From: Aedes albopictus
Lineage: Eukaryota > Arthropoda > Insecta > Diptera > Culicidae
DNA length: 64,000 bases
Assembly: GCF_035046485.1 (NCBI RefSeq)
Contig: NC_085137.1
Span: 317,856,739 to 317,920,738, forward strand
Reading direction: 5' to 3'
Shown here: one piece after another, positions 19,335 to 63,370 of the stretch
How positions within the stretch are numbered: the first letter of the stretch is position 1
How the letters are laid out: every line of letters starts with the position of its first letter
Made by a program: the position numbers and the translations under genes
Notes under the pieces: model-generated
What the model was told of the DNA's origin: nothing
Seen by the model: only the letters and a program-made list of their open reading frames with translations
The model's database searches: none

Positions 19335-19889
19335 TTCCGTGCTTGGCAACTGTCAAGCTACTGCACGCAGGGGGATAACGCAGGGCCAGAATCATCAACC
19401 CAGCATTCGATTTAACATGGCGTCCAATGTTTTGATTGCTTAATTCATGGAATAAATGCGCTGGAAACATCGGCACTGCTTCGCTGCTACATATAATATC
19501 GTGCAAAGTGATAAAGAGAAACAATCATCACAAACATTTCGTTTGAAATGTGTAATTTCCGAAATAAGCACTAGCAATACACAAGCCACACACCCGAAAA
19601 TCAGGAGCAAGTTAGGGTAAAGCGACCAGTGAATGGGGAACCAAAACGCGCCGTACCAAAAACGATGATGGGTAGAGCGGCGCTGTACCGAGTTTGATAG
19701 CTGTGTCACCCCACTGACTGCACGCTCCGCTAAAATCACTCCTTTTCCCACGCACAAACATGAAACGGTTTAGAAAGGTAAGAGCTAAGTAGGCGGTCGA
19801 GTACGGTGGTGCAAGAGGCAATACGTTTACACCGTCTTTGACCCCCTGCAGACAAATTTTGTCACCCCACAATATTGCTTCTTTTGCTC

Positions 19890-20725
19890 CGTGAATCTTC
19901 CGGGAATTTTTCCAGGAATTCCTCCAGGAATTTCTCCAAGAATTCCACTGGGAATTCCTCAGGAATTTCCTCCAAATATTTCTTCTGTAAATCCTTCGGG
20001 AATTCCTCTATGACATACTCCAGAAATTCCTCTGAGAAATCCTCCAGGAATTCCTCCGGAGATTTCTCCAAGAACTGTTATAGGGATTTCTCCAGGAATT
20101 CCACCGGGAATTTATTCAGGAATTCCTCCGGAAATATCTCCAGGAATCCCTCTAGGACTCCCATTAGAAATTCCTCCGGAGATTCCTTCGGTAATTTCTC
20201 TAGGAATTCTTCTGGGATTTTTTCAGGGACCCTTCGGAAGTTTCTCAACAATTCCTTCGGGAATCTCTCCGATTTTTTTTTTCAGGTTTTCCTCCGAGAG
20301 TTTCACTGAGAACTTCTCCAGGAATACCTCCATGAGTTCCTCCGAGAATTCCTTGATGAATTCCTCCGGGATTTTCCTCAGAAATTCCTCCAAGAATTTC
20401 TCCAGGAATTTCTCCGGGAATTTCTTCAGGGATTTCTTCTAGGACTCCCATCAGGAATTCCTCCGGGAATTACTTCAGGAAATCCACCAGAAATTGTCCG
20501 AGAAAGCCTCCACTCCATTTTCTCAGAATATCCTCTGAGAATTTCTCCAGGAATTCCTCTGGGAGTTTCTCCAGAAACTCCTCCGTGGATTTCTCCAGGC
20601 ATTCCTCTGGGAATGTTTCCGAGAATTCCTCCGAGAATTTCTCCAGGAATTCGTCCATGGAACTTTTTCAGGAATTGTTAATGGAATTCTGTCAAGAGTT
20701 TCTCCAGGAATTCCTCCGGGAATGA
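19890..20725. repeat. GGAATTCC-type minisatellite, left arm
   Basis: Imperfect 15-base units such as GGAATTCCTCCAGGA and ATTTCTCCGGGA. The 144-codon plus frame and several minus frames are translations of the repeat (RNSSGNFS- and EEFLEKF-like phrases) and are not genes. Confidence 0.9.
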
Positions 20726-20877
20726 CCATTCCGGTCAAGAAAAAAAATGCACTGAACGGAAATTACTTCAGCGATTCCGTTTTAGGTGCATACCTTACAT
20801 AGCTAGACAGCTGACGACTGATACTTCGAAACACAGTCGCCACGCTCAGTAAAATACGATCTACTCTGAGTGATCTA

Positions 20878-21090
20878 TTGAATCAGTCATACATAATCAC
20901 CTTGGTTTGGGTCCCTTCACATTGCTCGATTCCCGGGCTATATGAGAAGGCAGACTTATCAGGTAGGTATGGCCTTGCGGGTCTAAATGTTACTTTTTGG
21001 GATCTTTTCCACGACAGCATTCAGTTGGCTGTAAAAGTGCTCTTAGTCTTGCGGAAGCATCGGTTGGCGCGTAACATTGGATCCTGGTAA
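20878..21090 (+). pseudogene. RNase H remnant of a non-LTR retrotransposon, left arm
   Basis: The frame reads LVWVPSHCSIPGLYEKAD followed by LSGRYGLAG. This matches the WVPxHxxIxGNExAD-LA block that carries late catalytic residues of the RNase H domain in I/LOA/R1-type elements. The remainder of the domain upstream is degraded and there is no reverse transcriptase nearby. An identical copy is inverted at 21843-22055 as part of the palindrome. Confidence 0.65.
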
Positions 21091-21410
21091 GGTTTTGAGC
21101 CCGTGCTTTGAACCTGGCCACAACTACCCTCTCATCATTTGGGAACCTTCACGAGCGCAGAGTGGGCGTGAGCGTTGAGCGGGAAACCAACTCCACGATG
21201 ACGAGGAGCGTGTTCGCCTCGTAGACCAGAGTGTAGCAGAACCTGACCCAATGTCAATCAGTCAACGGACTTCGCTTAGTCCTAGGATCTCTCGGCTTGC
21301 CTCATTGACTATGATGATTAACCTGGGCTTGTTAGGGGAATATCTGTAAATAAAAAGAAAATCGGGTTAAGTACGGTTCCTTTGAATTCCACTAAGAATT
21401 TGCATCCTTT

Positions 21411-21456
21411 GACAGATACGTATTTCGACCTCAACTGTAAGGTCGTCTTCAGTGTC
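21411..21456 (-). ncRNA. Hammerhead-like ribozyme module 1
   Basis: Minus strand: GACA, then CTGAAGA, a stem GACCT/AGGTC with loop TACAGTTG, GAAA, a palindromic ATACGTAT, then C and TGTC. The order of stem I (GACA/TGTC), core CUGANGA, stem II, GAAA, a very short stem III and a UH cleavage site matches a type I hammerhead. One unpaired C between the core and stem II departs from the canonical form, so activity is uncertain. Confidence 0.55.
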
Positions 21457-21476
21457 TTGTACTTGACTCGACTCAA

Positions 21477-21522
21477 GACACTGAAGACGACCTTACAGTT
21501 GAGGTCGAAATACGTATCTGTC
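21477..21522 (+). ncRNA. Hammerhead-like ribozyme module 2
   Basis: Mirror image of the module at 21411-21456, 20 bases away on the other strand. Same core, stems and predicted cleavage after GTATC. The two facing modules could alternatively pair with each other as a long hairpin, which would compete with ribozyme folding. Confidence 0.55.
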
Positions 21523-21842
21523 AAAGGATGCAAATTCTTAGTGGAATTCAAAGGAACCGTACTTAACCCGATTTTCTTTTTATTTACAGATATTCCCCTA
21601 ACAAGCCCAGGTTAATCATCATAGTCAATGAGGCAAGCCGAGAGATCCTAGGACTAAGCGAAGTCCGTTGACTGATTGACATTGGGTCAGGTTATGCTAC
21701 ACTCTGGTCTACGAGGCGAACACGCTCCTCGTCATCGTGGAGTTGGTTTCCCGCTCAACGCTCACGCCCACTCTGCGCTCGTGAAGGTTCCCAAATGATG
21801 AGAGGGTAGTTGTGGCCAGGTTCAAAGCACGGGCTCAAAACC

Positions 21843-22055
21843 TTACCAGGATCCAATGTTACGCGCCAACCGATGCTTCCGCAAGACTAAGAGCACTTTT
21901 ACAGCCAACTGAATGCTGTCGTGGAAAAGATCCCAAAAAGTAACATTTAGACCCGCAAGGCCATACCTACCTGATAAGTCTGCCTTCTCATATAGCCCGG
22001 GAATCGAGCAATGTGAAGGGACCCAAACCAAGGTGATTATGTATGACTGATTCAA
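21843..22055 (-). pseudogene. RNase H remnant, right arm
   Basis: Identical inverted copy of 20878-21090, with the same WVPSHCSIPG block. It exists because the arm was duplicated, not as an independent insertion. Confidence 0.65.
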
Positions 22056-22207
22056 TAGATCACTCAGAGTAGATCGTATTTTACTGAGCGTGGCGACTGT
22101 GTTTCGAAGTATCAGTCGTCAGCTGTCTAGCTATGTAAGGTATGCACCTAAAACGGAATCGCTGAAGTAATTTCCGTTCAGTGCATTTTTTTTCTTGACC
22201 GGAATGG

Positions 22208-23043
22208 TCATTCCCGGAGGAATTCCTGGAGAAACTCTTGACAGAATTCCATTAACAATTCCTGAAAAAGTTCCATGGACGAATTCCTGGAGAAATTCTC
22301 GGAGGAATTCTCGGAAACATTCCCAGAGGAATGCCTGGAGAAATCCACGGAGGAGTTTCTGGAGAAACTCCCAGAGGAATTCCTGGAGAAATTCTCAGAG
22401 GGTATTCTGAGAAAATGGAGTGGAGGCTTTCTCGGACAATTTCTGGTGGATTTCCTGAAGTAATTCCCGGAGGAATTCCTGATGGGAGTCCTAGAAGAAA
22501 TCCCTGAAGAAATTCCCAGAGAAATTCCTGGAGAAATTCTTGGAGGAATTTCTGAGGAAAATCCCGGAGGAATTCATCAAGGAATTCTCGGAGGAACTCA
22601 TGGAGGTATTCCTGGAGAAGTTCTCAGTGAAACTCTCGGAGGAAAACCTGAAAAAAAAAATCGGAGAGATTCCCGAAGGAATTGTTGAGAAACTTCCGAA
22701 GGGTCCCTGAAAAAATCCCAGAAGAATTCCTAGAGAAATTACCGAAGGAATCTCCGGAGGAATTTCTAATGGGAGTCCTAGAGGGATTCCTGGAGATATT
22801 TCCGGAGGAATTCCTGAATAAATTCCCGGTGGAATTCCTGGAGAAATCCCTATAACAGTTCTTGGAGAAATCTCCGGAGGAATTCCTGGAGGATTTCTCA
22901 GAGGAATTTCTGGAGTATGTCATAGAGGAATTCCCGAAGGATTTACAGAAGAAATATTTGGAGGAAATTCCTGAGGAATTCCCAGTGGAATTCTTGGAGA
23001 AATTCCTGGAGGAATTCCTGGAAAAATTCCCGGAAGATTCACG
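22208..23043. repeat. GGAATTCC-type minisatellite, right arm
   Basis: Inverted copy of 19890-20725. It differs from the left copy at 22402 and 22518 only, as far as I could see. For a fast-changing minisatellite this near identity argues that the arms separated very recently. Confidence 0.9.
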
Positions 23044-23598
23044 GAGCAAAAGAAGCAATATTGTGGGGTGACAAAATTTGTCTGCAGGGGGTCAAAGACG
23101 GTGTAAACGTATTGCCTCTTGCACCACCGTACTCGACCGCCTACTTAGCTCTTACCTTTCTGAACCGTTTCATGTTTGTGCGTGGGAAAAGGAGTGATTT
23201 TAGCGGAGCGTGCAGTCAGTGGGGTGACACAGCTATCAAACTCGGTACAGCGCCGCTCTACCCATCATCGTTTTTGGTACGGCGCGTTTTGGTTCCCCAT
23301 TCACTGGTCGCTTTACCCTAACTTGCTCCTGATTTTCGGGTGTGTGGCTTGTGTATTGCTAGTGCTTATTTCGGAAATTACACATTTCAAACGAAATGTT
23401 TGTGATGATTGTTTCTCTTTATCACTTTGCACGATATTATATGTAGCAGCGAAGCAGTGCCGATGTTTCCAGCGCATTTATTCCATGAATTAAGCAATCA
23501 AAACATTGGACGCCATGTTAAATCGAATGCTGGGTTGATGATTCTGGCCCTGCGTTATCCCCCTGCGTGCAGTAGCTTGACAGTTGCCAAGCACGGAA

Positions 23599-23746
23599 TA
23601 AGGTCGTCTTCAGTGTCTTGAGTCGAGTCAAGTACAAGACACTGAAGACGACCTTACAGTTGAGGTCGAAATACGTATCTGTCAAAGGATGCAAATTCTT
23701 AGTGGAATTCAAAGGAACCGTACTTAACCCGATTTTCTTTTTATTT
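23599..23746. mobile_element. Partial foldback retroelement at the right palindrome edge
   Basis: A short left arm (TAAGGTCGTCTTCAGTGTC) and a full right arm down to GATTTTCTTTTTATTT lie around a spacer that is the reverse complement of the central one. It ends at 23746 directly before CTCATTGACTA (23747-23757). The same 11 bases stand at 21301-21311, immediately before the start of the central element, so the outer ends of the two partial elements look like the two ends of one original insertion. Confidence 0.75.
23638..23683 (+). ncRNA. Hammerhead-like ribozyme module 3
   Basis: Base-for-base the same module as 21477-21522: CTGAAGA, GACCT/AGGTC stem, GAAA, ATACGTAT, TGTC closing against GACA. 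It lies in the partial foldback at the edge of the palindrome. Confidence 0.55.
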
Positions 23747-23757
23747 CTCATTGACTA

Positions 23758-35454: not shown

Positions 35455-37950
35455 TCAGTCACGCCCAACAACGCTCCACCTGGTCCGCCCATCGTGCTCT
35501 CTGCGCCCCACGCCTTCTTGTACCAACAGGATAGTTAGCAAACACCAACTTTGCAGAGTTGTTGTCCGGCTTACTTCCAACATGCCCTGCCCACCGTATC
35601 CATCCAGCTTTTGCCACCTTCAGGATGTTGGATTCACCGTAGAGTGCAGCGTGCTTGTGGTCCATCCTTCTCCACCACACACCGTTCTCCTGCACGCCGC
35701 TGAAGATCGTCCTAAGCACGCGTCGCTCGAAAACTCCGAGTGCTTGAAGGTCCTCCTCGAGCATGGTCCATGTCTCGTGTCCGTAGAGAACCACCGGTCT
35801 TATTAGCGTCTTGTACATGGTACATTTGGTGTGGGGGTGAATCTTTTTTGACCGCAGTTTCTTCTGGAGCCTGTAGTAGGGACGACTTCCACTGATGATG
35901 CGCCTTCGTATTTCACGGCTCACGTTATAGTCAGTCGTTAGCAAGGAACCAAGGTAGACGAATTATTCTACCATTTCGAAAATATCCCCGTCTATCGTAA
36001 CATCGCTGCCAAGGCTTGTCCAATCTCGCTCAGTCCCACCTACCAGCATGTGCTTTATCTTAGCCGCATTCACAACCAGTCCGAACTTTGCTGTTTCACG
36101 TTTCATGCGGGTGTACAGTTCTGCCACCGTTCCAAATGTTCGGGCAATAATATCCATATCATCCGCAAAACAGACAAATTGGTCGGATTTTGTGACGATC
36201 GTACCCCGGCTGTTGAACCGGGCTCGTCGCATAGCACCTTCCAGGGCAATGTTCAGTAGTAGGCAGGAAAGTCCATCACCTTGTCGTAGTCTCCGTCGAG
36301 ATTCGAATGAACTGGATAGTTCACCCGAAATCCTTATGCTGTTCTGCACACCGTCCATTGTTGCTCTTATCAGTCTGGTAAGCTTTCCGGGAAAGCTGTT
36401 CTCGTCCATGATTTTACATATGTAGCTCTGTGCGGTTGATACTGTCGTCTGCCTCCTTGAAGTCGACGAACAGGTGGTGCGTTGGGACCATCTGGAGGAT
36501 TTGCCATACGATGAAGATCTGGTCCGTTGTCGACCGGCCGTAGATGAAACCGGCTTGGTAACTTCCCACGAACTCATTTACTTTAGGTGAAAGACGACGG
36601 AAGATGATCTGAGATAGCACTTTGTAAGTGGCACTCAAAAATGTGATCGCTCGAAAGTTCTCACACAAAGGCGACATCTTGTGGATGGGACAGATTATCC
36701 CTTCCTTCCACTCCTTGATCTTGATGAGTTCTACTGCGATACCGTCCTTACAAGCCGCTTTGTGGTTTTTGAGCTGCTGGATGGCATCCTTAACTTCCCT
36801 CAGCGTGGGAGTTGGTTCGTACCCGTCTTCTACTGCACCAACATAGTCATTTCCTCCACTGCCTTGATCCCCCGTGCCTACATTCTCTTCGCTACTCAGG
36901 TGCTCGTCGAAGTGCTGCTTCCAGCTTTCGATCACCTCACGTTTGTCCGTCAGGAGGCTCCTGTTCTTATCCCTGCAGATTTCGGCTTGCGGCACGTAGC
37001 CTTTGCGGGATGCGTTGAGCTTCTGGTAGAACTTACGTGTTTCTTGTGAACGGCACAGCAGGTCCATTTCCTCGCATCGGGCACACCCTCGGGCACACCC
37101 TCGTCCGGCAACGCTGCCTCGAGATTCTGCGCGTATGCGGTGGCGACATCCGGTTGCTTCAGTCGCTCTAGATCGTACCGAGGAGGTAGCCGGCACTGTA
37201 AATTGTCAATAATGGAGAGTTTTGGGCGCAATTTATCCATCATCAGGTAGCGATCAGAGTCGATATTAGCGCCACGATAGGTCTTGAAGTCGATGATGTC
37301 GGAGAAATGCCGTCCATCAATCTGAACGTGGTCGATTTGCGATTGCGTTTGTTGCGATGATCTCCAGGTGTAACGATACGGGAGGCTATGCTGGAAGAAG
37401 GTGCTACGAATGGCCATGTTCTTGGAGGCGGCGAAATCGATGAGGCGTAGGCCATTTTCGTTCGTCAGCTGGTGGGCGCTGAACTTTCCAATCGTCGGTC
37501 TGAATTCCTCCTCCTGGCCTACCTGATCGTTTAGATCCCCTATGATGATTTTGACGTCGTGGTTTGAGCAGCGATCGTACTCGCGTTCGAGCTGCGCGTA
37601 AAATGCGTCTTTGTCATCATTAGTGCTTCCGGAGTGAGGGCTGTGCACGTTTATTATGCTAATGTTGAAGAATTGGCCTTTGATCCTCAACCTGCACATT
37701 CTTTCGTCGATCGGCCACCAACCGATCACGCGCCTCTGCATGTCTCTGGTAGATGGTATGATTACCTCTAAACGTTCGCACCACTAACCCAGGGAGCTGG
37801 GTTACCTTCCCGGAAGCTACGGGTTCTGCATTGGCATTTCCTCCAACTACAGTTCTTAATAGCTAGGCTCAAGCGCCAGTTTTCGCCGGGGGTGGTGTTT
37901 TTAAAGGGCGCCCAGAAGATAATATTTTACCTGAGCTTCCACCCCCAGAG
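35455..37950 (-). pseudogene. RTE-like non-LTR retrotransposon, nearly complete but frameshifted
   Basis: Minus strand. Endonuclease (36950-37741) with GDLNDQVG near 37520-37540, TWRSSQQTQSQIDH, and SDR where SDH is expected. Reverse transcriptase (36414-37196) with LKNHKAACKDGI, YQAGFIYGRSTTDQIF and LFVDFKEADDS; palm (35963-36577) with RLRQGDGLSCLLLNIALEG and FADD at 36158-36169; C-terminal tail (35459-35944) with RSYY-like, RPVVLYGHETWTM and AGWIRWAGHV. Frameshifts lie near 37080 (duplicated GGGCACACCCTC), 36420 and 35950, and an in-frame deletion follows GIAVELIK. 37742-37950 is probably 5' leader. Homologous to 6606-8361. Confidence 0.88.
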
Positions 37951-39645: not shown

Positions 39646-39850
39646 ATAGTTGAAAACATGGGTTATAATTATAAGAAACTTTTTTCAGCTGATAACAAAG
39701 TCGGTAAAGTAGATGTTTACTATTTTGGTCGATAAAATAGCCCTGAATGATAACTAAATGATAACAAAACCTGTTATCAATTTGAACTCAATGATAACTC
39801 AACTTCTTATCATTTTGGTATTGGTGGAGTAAATTTGAGTTATCATTTTT

Positions 39851-40080
39851 AAAAGAAAATCGGGTTAAGTACGGTTCCTTTGAATTCCACTAAGAATTTG
39901 CATCCTTTGACAGATACGTATTTCGACCTCAACTGTAAGGTCGTCTTCAGTGTCTTGTACTTGACTCGACGTACAATCTGTCAAAGGATGCAAATTCTTA
40001 GTGGAATTCAAAGGAACCGTACTTAACCCGATTTTCTTTTATTTACAGATATTCCCCTAACAAGCCCAGGTTAATCATCA
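39851..40080. mobile_element. Foldback retroelement, complete insertion with 11-bp duplication
   Basis: TTATCATTTTT flanks the element at 39840-39850 and 40081-40091. The left arm starts AAAAGAAAATCGGGTTAAG and carries one hammerhead-like module. The right arm returns from CTGTCAAAGGATGC to CCCGATTTTCTTTTATTTAC and continues to AACAAGCCCAGGTTAATCATCA. The right arm lost its module by a hinge deletion. A long duplication of variable length points to RNA-mediated insertion, not a cut-and-paste transposase. Confidence 0.75.
39909..39954 (-). ncRNA. Hammerhead-like ribozyme module 4
   Basis: Identical in sequence to the modules at 21411-21456 and 21477-21522, read on the minus strand. Here there is no facing second module, so this copy would be the easiest to test for self-cleavage. 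Confidence 0.55.
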
Positions 40081-40272
40081 TTATCATTTTTGTTATGTTG
40101 GCTTTTAATTCAACCTAAATGATAACAAACTCAATTATCAAACGAATGATAACCAGGTAACAGAACTTGTTATCATTTTGATATCCGCCTTTACTCGGGG
40201 ATCCTGTGTCGGACTTTATGGAATGTCATGCACGGCGAGATGTTGGAGTTAAAGTCGTCATCGTAATGAATG

Positions 40273-57453: not shown

Positions 57454-59147
57454 TGGGTAACTCTCACTGAGACCGGACCACTATTTACACCCTGAGGGTT
57501 GCGGACTGAAATTTGACAGCAGCCAGGCTGCTGCCAAACCTCCAAAATGATCAGAGTGTGCCTGGTTACAAGTTCGGTTTGCTAAGTCACGCTAAAACAA
57601 GTGAAACGATTAATGACACACAAACTTTTCCTGCGGATACAAAAATGCTTTTCTGAGTGAAAATTATATGTAAAACTTGCCCAAAATTGGTTCAATATTC
57701 TTTCAAACCAGTATAAGACCAAATCAGCTGAATAAATGTGCTTAAATTTTACTTTTCTTGTAATTGATATATTTAAAATTTGTGTGAAGCAGTTTATGCG
57801 TGCGCTTTGAAATTGATCTCCATAGAGATAAGAAACTCAACCACGGGGAGCACTGGAGGAAACAATACGCGCTCAAATTGAATGACCAAAAGAATTGAGT
57901 CCGCACACCTCAGTTTACACCTTGTCTTAAAAAATGTTTAAGGTGCCGATTTTCTGAAAGCCCTCGCTAAAAAAGTAAGAAAAATGCATTTGGTTACTCA
58001 AATTGATGGACCCCCCATTAGTTAGAGCCACAACAATTTTTGCAGACCCCTCGACTTTGGTCAAACGGTGGCTCATTTAAAACGTTATAACTCGAAAGTT
58101 TCTCCAAAAACCACCTCAAAACGAATTGTTGTTGAAAAGAGGAAAGATAGAGCTACTATTTACAATAATAAAAAGTTGGGTCGGCCATATTGATTTTGGC
58201 CGCCATCTTGGATTTTTAAACCAAAACATTTTTTTCACCATGAGGGCAACCACCGATTTTCAAAATTTTTGCATCAATTGAAAGCTGAGACATTTATACA
58301 TAACATATCAAAAAATTAGAGATGTCTTTTTTTCCTAACAAAAGTGATCTGCAGTTTTGTAAATTAGGCCACGTTCCCCATACATTTCCATGCGCACCGG
58401 CAACGACATGCAACAGCATCCGAGTTTACGCCTGCATGTATACAAAAAGCCGCGTGCCGCAAAATTTGGCCAAATTGGAGGTTCGTTTCCGTTTTTGACT
58501 GTTTCTCAATGATGCGGGCATTGCTTTTTTAGTGTTTTGAAAAGCTTAAACCTCCAGCTTTCCATTAGTGGGTTCAGAATTTAAATTCGTGTTCGTAAAC
58601 ACTGCGAAATAACGCTGCATTTATGTAAACAGCCGGCACCGGGCCCAGTGCGCAAAAGTGGCATGATTTACAAAACGGCAAATCACTTTTGAAAGAAGAA
58701 AAAGACATCTCTAATTTTTTGATATGTTATGTATAAATGCCTCAGCTTTCAATTGATGCAAAAATTTTGAAAATCGGTGGTTGCCCTCATGGTAAAAAAA
58801 AATGTTTTGGTTTATAAATTCAAGATGGCGGCCAAAATCAATATGGACGACCCAACTTTTTATTATTGTAAATAGTAGATCTATCTTTCCTCTTTTCAAC
58901 AACAATTCGTTTTGAGCTGGTTTTTGGAGAAACTTTCGAGTTATAACGGTTTAAGTGAGCCACCATTTGACCAAAATCGAGGGGTCTGCAAAAATTGTTG
59001 TGGCTCTAACTAACGGGGGGTCCATCAATTTGAGTAACCAAATGCATTTTTCTTACTTTTTTAGCGAGGGCTTTCAGAAAATCGGCACATTAAACATTTT
59101 TGAAGACAAGGTGTAAATAGTGGGCCGGTCTCAGCGAGAATTACCCA
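57454..59147. mobile_element. Long inverted-repeat element, ~450-bp arms, split by a hAT-like insertion
   Basis: Outer ends TGGGTAACTCTCACTGAGAC and the inverse of TGGGTAATTCTCGCTGAGAC match over about 40 bases. Beyond the insertion (57492-57913) the left arm continues to about 58375 and is inverted at about 58655-59116 with high similarity, including AACAATTTTTGCAGACCCCT and TTGATTTTGGCCGCCATCTT. The central 280 bases are unique. No transposase. Confidence 0.85.
57492..57913. mobile_element. 422-bp hAT-like element with 8-bp duplication
   Basis: TTTACACC flanks it at 57484-57491 and 57914-57921. Ends CTGAGGGTTGCGGACTGAA and the inverse of CTGAGGTGTGCGGACTCAA are TIRs with few mismatches. 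An exact 8-bp target duplication is characteristic of hAT transposases. No coding sequence. It inserted in the left arm of the element at 57454-59147. Confidence 0.85.
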
Positions 59148-62510: not shown

Positions 62511-63370
62511 AGGTCTCCCCATTAAAAATTCGCAGTTTTCTCCAGTGATTTCTTAAGAAAATTCTTCAGGCCTTAATAACATTAAAACGTCTCTTGATTC
62601 CTTAAGAAATTCCTCTGAAGATTGCCCAAAAACTTTCTCCAACAACTATTTCAGCCTAAATATCTCTAGAAAACCCAGTAAAAATTGCTTTCTAAAAGAT
62701 TTCCACGGAAATTTTTCCGTGAATTTCGTCAGAACTTCTCCAGAATTCCCTTCTAAAACTTTTCTATACATTCCTCCAAATAATTCTCTAAGTACATAGA
62801 AAACATTCATTGGAATTTCTCAGGAGTTCCTCCATCGATTCTTTCAGAGATCCATCCGAGAATTCTCTCGGAAAATCGTTCAAGGATTCCTTCAGAAGTT
62901 CTCCCAGCGATTACTGCCGGAGACAAGAAATTCAGAATATTCTTGTTATTACAATGGCAAAATCAGTTATTCTTTAGTTGTTATGCCATAGAAATTTATT
63001 ATTTTTGTTATTTTAACTCTTATTTCAAACAAACTAATGGCAAATTTTGCCATTCAAACATTCTATTTTAATGATAAAGTTTGCCCTTCATTTGCCATTT
63101 CGCTCTACCTGGCATCTGTCAGAAGATGCAAACAAATAGTTGAAATTATAAGGAACAGTATTTAAATCTTTTAGTTATTTGTTCAGAACTTTTAATTAAT
63201 GTTAAGCTTTTATGGAATTTTTCCAAAAATGAAGGATTTTTTTCAGGAATTTCTCCATGGATTACATCTTGCATTGCATTCCATTAGGAATTCGTGAAAG
63301 TAAAGGTCTACAATAATTTCTTCAGGAATTCCTCTAGTAGAGCTTTTTGCGTGATATCTTTCAGTGATTT
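62511..63370. repeat. Degenerate minisatellite and AT-rich sequence
   Basis: 62520-62930 and 63195-63345 contain GGAATTTCTCCAGGA / TTCTCCAGAATTCC-type units; 62935-63190 is AT-rich with TTTGCCATT phrases. Confidence 0.6.

Follow-up and report, generated by a model that had tools for sequence, protein, structure and literature searches.

A kilobase-scale palindrome in the genome of the mosquito Aedes albopictus carries at its hinge what we read as a solo Penelope-like insertion. We hold, with moderate confidence, that the insertion of this foldback element followed by an inter-strand template switch with return is its best explanation. The net change at the locus is a pure inverted duplication of 2,161 nt, from which nothing was lost.

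Anatomy of the palindrome and its empty site

The window, a stretch of 64,000 nt on a contig of 518,725,454 bases (C2), contains a 4.26-kb palindrome made of two arms of 2,125 nt each (19335-21459 and 21474-23598) that are separated by a 14-nt loop (21460-21473). An earlier note had placed such a palindrome at 19335..23757, and two near-identical arms around a loop were indeed recovered there, although its arm length of 2,132 bp includes half of the loop, and we counted four arm differences where it had three. All four are substitutions (19771/23162, 20415/22518, 20531/22402 and 21239/21694); the arms differ by no indel, yet each contains 30 homopolymer runs of at least 4 nt, the longest being T10.

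On the left side, the forward-strand flank that served as the source of the inverted copy (19335..21300, 1,966 nt) includes a degenerate array of ~12-bp units at about 19890-20720, and its last part is a piece of a dispersed repeat. It is followed by the left copy of the target-site duplication, CTCATTGACTA (21301..21311, forward strand), and by a long pLTR arm on the reverse strand, 148 nt including a 36-nt tail (21312..21459). Beyond the central loop, TACTTGACTCGACT (21460..21473), lie a second long pLTR arm on the forward strand (21474..21621), which we interpret as a product of reverse copying, an inverted copy of the target duplication, TAGTCAATGAG (21622..21632, reverse strand), and the inverted copy of the left flank (21633..23598, reverse strand). 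This copy ends at a blunt joint (23598..23599) with 0 nt of microhomology and no inserted bases. To its right stands an incomplete hinge element (23599-23746), consisting of the loop-adjacent end of the original long arm, 22 nt in length (23599..23620, reverse strand), the reversed loop AGTCGAGTCAAGTA (23621..23634), and a short, untailed pLTR arm of 112 nt that is devoid of the terminal 36 nt (23635..23746, forward strand). This loop equals the first 14 nt of the pLTR, is contiguous with the short arm and matches the central loop in reverse complement, a point missing from the earlier note. The right copy of the target duplication closes the locus (23747..23757, forward strand). As had been proposed from the letters, the same 11-bp word thus precedes the long end and follows the short end; besides its inverted copy, CTCATTGACTA is absent elsewhere in the window.

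When 21438-23598 is omitted, what is left reads as a target duplication, a 148-nt tailed arm, the loop AGTCGAGTCAAGTA, a 112-nt untailed arm, and a second target duplication. The omitted 2,161 nt, which lie on the reverse strand, match pre-event 19335-21495 in reverse complement, with 4 mismatches when that loop is used and 18 when it is turned. Reverse-complement identity between the inserted stretch and its source is 0.998 over 2,161 nt, against a mean of 0.258 and a maximum of 0.294 in a chance control of 1,620 pairs of 2,161-nt stretches from the same window. One of the two joints is hidden inside the perfect arms, and the other is visible and blunt. The claim that a single ordinary insertion with an 11-bp duplication remains after removal of the inverted copy is supported by paralogous empty sites, with the stretch to be removed corrected from about 21622-23598 to 21438-23598. 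Two independent insertions were rejected, as the target duplications pair across both elements.

Among the best 40 of 4,440 candidates scored with the left part of the joined site, 37 of the 38 non-self matches continue through the insertion point, and the two flanks were therefore formerly adjacent. Four paralogues were fetched and aligned; all pass from the left into the right flank, and the junction word occurs once in each (CTCATTGGCTA in three, CTTATTGGTTA in one). For the right flank, a single place reaches 100% among the best 40 (of 4,230 candidates) that were scored. For the left flank (20760-21300), two places near 100%, namely the two arms, were found among the best 40 of 3,548 scored, the next being at most 83%. 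Because the paralogues run through, and because the left flank has two places and the right flank one, the left and right flanks belong together, the inverted copy being the extra piece. The paralogues show the ancestral empty site, which is distinct from a single-insertion allele at the palindrome locus. Only one of the four arm differences was polarised: at position 21239, the left-arm base is common to the four paralogues read, and the derived base therefore lies in the inverted arm.

The hinge element and its other copies

The foldback retroelement that had been proposed at the hinge is supported by its head-to-head pLTRs. From its anatomy, we read the hinge as a solo Penelope-like insertion, with two head-to-head pLTRs, a 36-nt tail on one of them, and an 11-bp target duplication. 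The repeat unit is read as a Penelope-like pLTR because, in two family copies elsewhere in the assembly (L016 and L020), a frame with RVT_1 (PF00078) and GIY-YIG (PF01541) domains, both above curated cut-offs, ends ~200-250 nt upstream of it; the hinge copy in the window comprises pLTRs only. Rotifer Penelope copies are described as having an inverted pLTR alongside, with a 31-bp tail on one of the inverted pLTRs, and 8-10-bp duplications (PMC3846280). The tail corresponds to the interval that separates two start sites of reverse transcription, and the Penelope-like protein of the anole cleaves and extends both strands (PMC11167929). In place and size, the 36-nt difference between the long and short arms agrees with the published Penelope tail. 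The element thus resembles solo insertions of the Penelope/Poseidon type, as the available accounts portray them, in its head-to-head pLTRs, a 30-40-bp tail on one of them and a short target duplication, and, through L016 and L020, in the reverse transcriptase and GIY-YIG frame upstream of the pLTR. The locus differs from this type by its two tails and its 2-kb inverted flank. In contrast to FB/Galileo, as far as the accounts at hand describe them, the arms here are pLTRs of an RT/GIY-YIG element.

By eye, the pLTR shows a candidate hammerhead-like core. Rfam returned no match at gathering thresholds, and at relaxed thresholds up to E 10 no hammerhead family was among the matches, all of which fell below curated scores. 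The best of these, a mir-624-like match (E 4.2e-10, 55 bits versus a cut-off of 100), reflects the long hairpin. Words from the pLTR had no matches in the viral contig and genome contig collections searched. Since a 148-base DNA search of the assembly (1,344,132,971 bases), in which very common words are skipped, gave no matches, pLTR copies were counted by pattern search, and the 26-mer from the pLTR start matched 2,489 times.

To compare the locus with its relatives, we used the first listed places on a second contig (C1, 338,177,654 bases), a non-random sample of 70 loci reaching up to ~44.7 Mb. Three loci (L003, L018 and L026) were dropped as the same places as L002, L017 and L025, and the remaining 67 contain 31 head-to-head pairs, plus 48 pLTR matches outside such pairs. 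Of these foldbacks, 29 combine a tailed and an untailed arm, while in the other two, one arm matches only to unit position 52-54; none of the 31 is two-tailed or two-untailed. The longest word common to both ends, taken without a chance control, measures 11-14 nt in 23 of the 31 and 0-8 nt in eight. Inverted flanks at the element were found in none of the 31, within a search reach of at most 2.3 kb per side (~1.3 kb for L001-L030). At L042, a 35-bp inverted match lies distant from the element; weaker ones occur at L013, L024, L041, L046 and L053, none of them at the element. The idea that the palindrome is a normal Penelope product was rejected, with 0/31 sampled foldbacks alike. Because no other sampled foldback has inverted flanks or two tails, the palindrome looks like a rare secondary event.

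The hinges measured in the first 30 loci comprise eight distinct ones, all different. Genome-wide, the exact hinge of the palindrome was found at five positions, two of them within the palindrome locus itself; the remaining three belong to separate insertions, each bounded by a duplication of its own, in which the loop goes with the untailed arm twice and with the tailed arm once. Among the sampled hinges, 11 are asymmetric, seven of them with the loop adjoining the untailed arm and four with the opposite placement. The window itself holds an independent foldback of the same element (39851..40080, forward strand; one tailed and one untailed arm), flanked by TTATCATTTTT at 39840-39850 and 40081-40091, and there too the loop adjoins the untailed arm.

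Loop orientation and the origin of the inverted copy

We propose a two-step origin. A Penelope-like element would first have inserted in one copy of the dispersed repeat, giving a 274-nt head-to-head pLTR pair with one tailed pLTR, one untailed pLTR and the 11-bp duplication on either side, a step supported by both the anatomy and the paralogues. In the second step, a replication or repair polymerase would have been travelling left to right inside the first pLTR arm when the end of its nascent strand moved to the opposite template strand (sister or lagging template) and annealed there to the second arm, its complement. Copying would then have run backwards across the loop, the first pLTR arm, the 11-bp duplication and 1,966 nt of the left flank as far as 19335, where the polymerase would have left and rejoined the original template 22 nt before the loop without microhomology. 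The product of this second step stands in the assembly, and we infer the mechanism from it. Because the first joint is unplaceable within the perfect arms, a return to the point of departure is likewise a conjecture, adopted as the most economical reading.

Four models were constructed forward and compared with the letters of the locus. Snap-back followed by resumption misses by 14 letters, whichever the starting orientation. Strand switching followed by resumption reproduces the letters if the original loop was that of the right-hand copy, while cruciform resolution reproduces them for either loop orientation, by one of two cut options. The loop orientations are opposite in the two hinges, and intramolecular snap-back predicts the same orientation; snap-back followed by resumption was rejected on this ground, although snap-back with a separate loop-inversion step would also do. 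In yeast, spacer inversion arises with an intermolecular first switch in the first arm (PMC8604942). The opposite loops fit an intermolecular first-arm switch or a resolved cruciform, and not a simple hairpin snap-back. The earlier note had a polymerase turn round at the element's own hairpin, copy about 2 kb backwards and return into the element; the foldback hinge, the backward copy and the return are retained in our model, and the turn at the hairpin is abandoned owing to the loop orientation. The other copies (7/11 sampled hinges, 39851-40080, and two of the three same-hinge insertions) lean towards the pre-event loop orientation that strand switching needs, and we adopt that orientation on parsimony and these modest counts (7 vs 4; 2 vs 1). 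Strand switching is also favoured by the two tails of the central foldback, compared with 29/31 tailed-untailed and 0/31 tailed-tailed foldbacks in the sample. Against it speaks the return joint, which is without microhomology; junctions of small inverted triplications have a median of 6 bp (PMC13334657).

A blunt joint would be natural for end joining, as invoked by cruciform resolution, an origin that we regard as rather unlikely. Here, the foldback would have been extruded and cut at its base, yielding two hairpin-capped ends with opposite loops; the left cap would have been opened or filled 2.1 kb away, the right cap 22 nt from the loop, and the ends joined bluntly. Besides giving the same letters whichever the original loop orientation, this scheme has a precedent in the hairpin-capped breaks known at interrupted palindromes with a 12-bp spacer in yeast (PMC8053094). 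However, instability in double-stranded DNA falls with longer spacers (PMC10164571), and an E. coli palindrome with a 24-bp spacer is reported to undergo degradation plus a hairpin rather than a cruciform (PMC3315005). We prefer the inter-strand switch over the cruciform because the former takes two switches with no loss, whereas the latter requires that two off-centre openings occur independently and that the end joining, by chance, entail no loss.

That the palindrome is an assembly or library artefact, the simple insertion being the true allele, is unlikely. The arms are nearly identical, the locus is known from the assembly alone, and amplified long-read libraries are known to yield palindromic chimeras (PMC6218980). 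Nevertheless, the arms differ by four substitutions, with no indels even in homopolymers, one of these substitutions has its derived base in the inverted arm, and the blunt joint at 19335 together with the reversed loop goes beyond what a graph artefact would produce by itself.

Opposite loops are also predicted if the palindrome arose during retrotransposition, which we consider improbable. Each target strand would have primed a cDNA, the cDNAs would have self-primed by fold-back, and the left one would have been extended beyond the element through 2 kb of flanking host DNA, with end joining to follow. The ability of a Penelope-like protein to cut and extend both strands, its two start sites lying next to each other (PMC11167929), and the self-priming inferred from palindromic junctions of rotifer Penelope copies (PMC3846280) are in line with such a course. 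By contrast, the two hinges of the locus are identical, while the eight distinct hinges of the first 30 loci all differ, the exact hinge is found at only three other places versus 2,489 pLTR-start matches, and no sampled foldback has inverted flanks at the element. As the exact hinge does recur at three places, its identity in the two hinges is a weaker argument against two separate fold-backs.

Finally, an eroded inverted triplication, in which an ODIRA-like or iterative switch gave a left-inverted-left arrangement whose second palindrome end joining subsequently trimmed, would also produce the flipped loop and the blunt joint, and such erosion has been proposed for inverted human CNVs (PMC10766186), but it is very unlikely, as only two near-100% left-flank copies exist among the best 40 of 3,548 candidates scored and the trimming must stop within the element arm, restoring the pre-event allele.

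Relation to known rearrangements and significance

The inter-strand switch proposed here resembles template switching at inverted repeats, or the four-point model (PMC8604942, PMC7954356), in its outward switch within an arm, its reverse-complement copying that includes the spacer, and its return to the original strand; the inverted stretch is indeed a contiguous reverse-complement copy with an inverted spacer. It differs in size, 2,161 nt versus the tens to hundreds of nt given in the available text of those studies, and in a return without microhomology. With ODIRA and small inverted triplications (PMC4689423, PMC10766186, PMC13334657), as outlined there, it shares a nascent strand that switches template at an interrupted inverted repeat. 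Those products have three copies with the middle one inverted, whereas 20760-21300 has two near-100% places here (best 40 of 3,548), and at the far end we recognised no further inverted repeat. In foldback-primed inverted duplication at double-strand breaks, an inverted repeat also starts the reverse copying (PMC10622511); in contrast to the events outlined in that source, the duplication described here is interstitial and lossless with an inverted loop, and intrastrand folding alone does not invert a loop.

Penelope foldbacks, spacer-inverting template switching and inverted duplications at inverted repeats are already known separately. In the open-licence literature, looking for palindromes linked to Penelope brought up one paper, which concerns ape genomes, and among the 12 papers listed of 95 on foldback elements and template switching, no title or abstract opening mentions Penelope; neither listing included a kilobase inverted duplication seeded by a Penelope element. 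If the palindrome did arise during retrotransposition, then retrotransposition would itself generate inverted duplications of host flanks on the kilobase scale. A solo head-to-head insertion of a Penelope-like element is a ready-made interrupted inverted repeat, and this locus is a record of a lossless kilobase inverted duplication in which loop orientation tells inter-strand switching from snap-back. Since the loop, the tails and the target duplication mark such events from within, surveying every copy could gauge their germ-line frequency.

The hammerhead-like core and the palindrome's return joint

At 21474-21522, the pLTR contains a small hairpin together with the series CTGAAGA ... GAAA ... 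TGTC, a hammerhead-like core. An Rfam search returned no hammerhead family match for this core. The visible return joint of the palindrome, the blunt junction (23598/23599) at which the inverted copy gives way to the original long pLTR arm, lies in, or borders, the loop of the same small hairpin.

Further copies of the Penelope-like element

A second Penelope-like foldback insertion is found in the window at 39851-40080, flanked by an 11-bp target duplication, TTATCATTTTT. In its tailed arm, the pLTR match begins only at position 57 of the repeat unit, close to the putative hammerhead cut site. A pLTR remnant (63114-63165, 77% identity) starts at the same unit position as this truncated arm.

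Tandem arrays, LINE remains and other inverted repeats

Both palindrome arms carry a degenerate array of GAATTCCTCCGG-like units of about 12 bp (19890-20720 and 22210-23040), with weaker relatives near 6.3 kb and at 45.6-46.2 kb of the window. Broken LINE frames occupy 35459-37783 on the minus strand; their RVT_1 matches score above the cut-off at 35963-36577 and below it at 36414-37205, a stretch whose top-scoring named relatives are mosquito proteins.

A MITE-like inverted repeat in three blocks (1-210 versus 658-865) spans 1-865, reaching the window edge, and a long one at 57943-59088, in three blocks of 112, 128 and 95 nt (lengths by seed runs), is perhaps another terminal-inverted-repeat element. 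Elsewhere in the assembly, the sampled pLTR locus L017 holds two mutually inverted copies of the Penelope 3' region plus pLTR (1410-1716 versus 2156-2461 in its own coordinates), 99% identical across 307 nt, possibly a further inverted arrangement.
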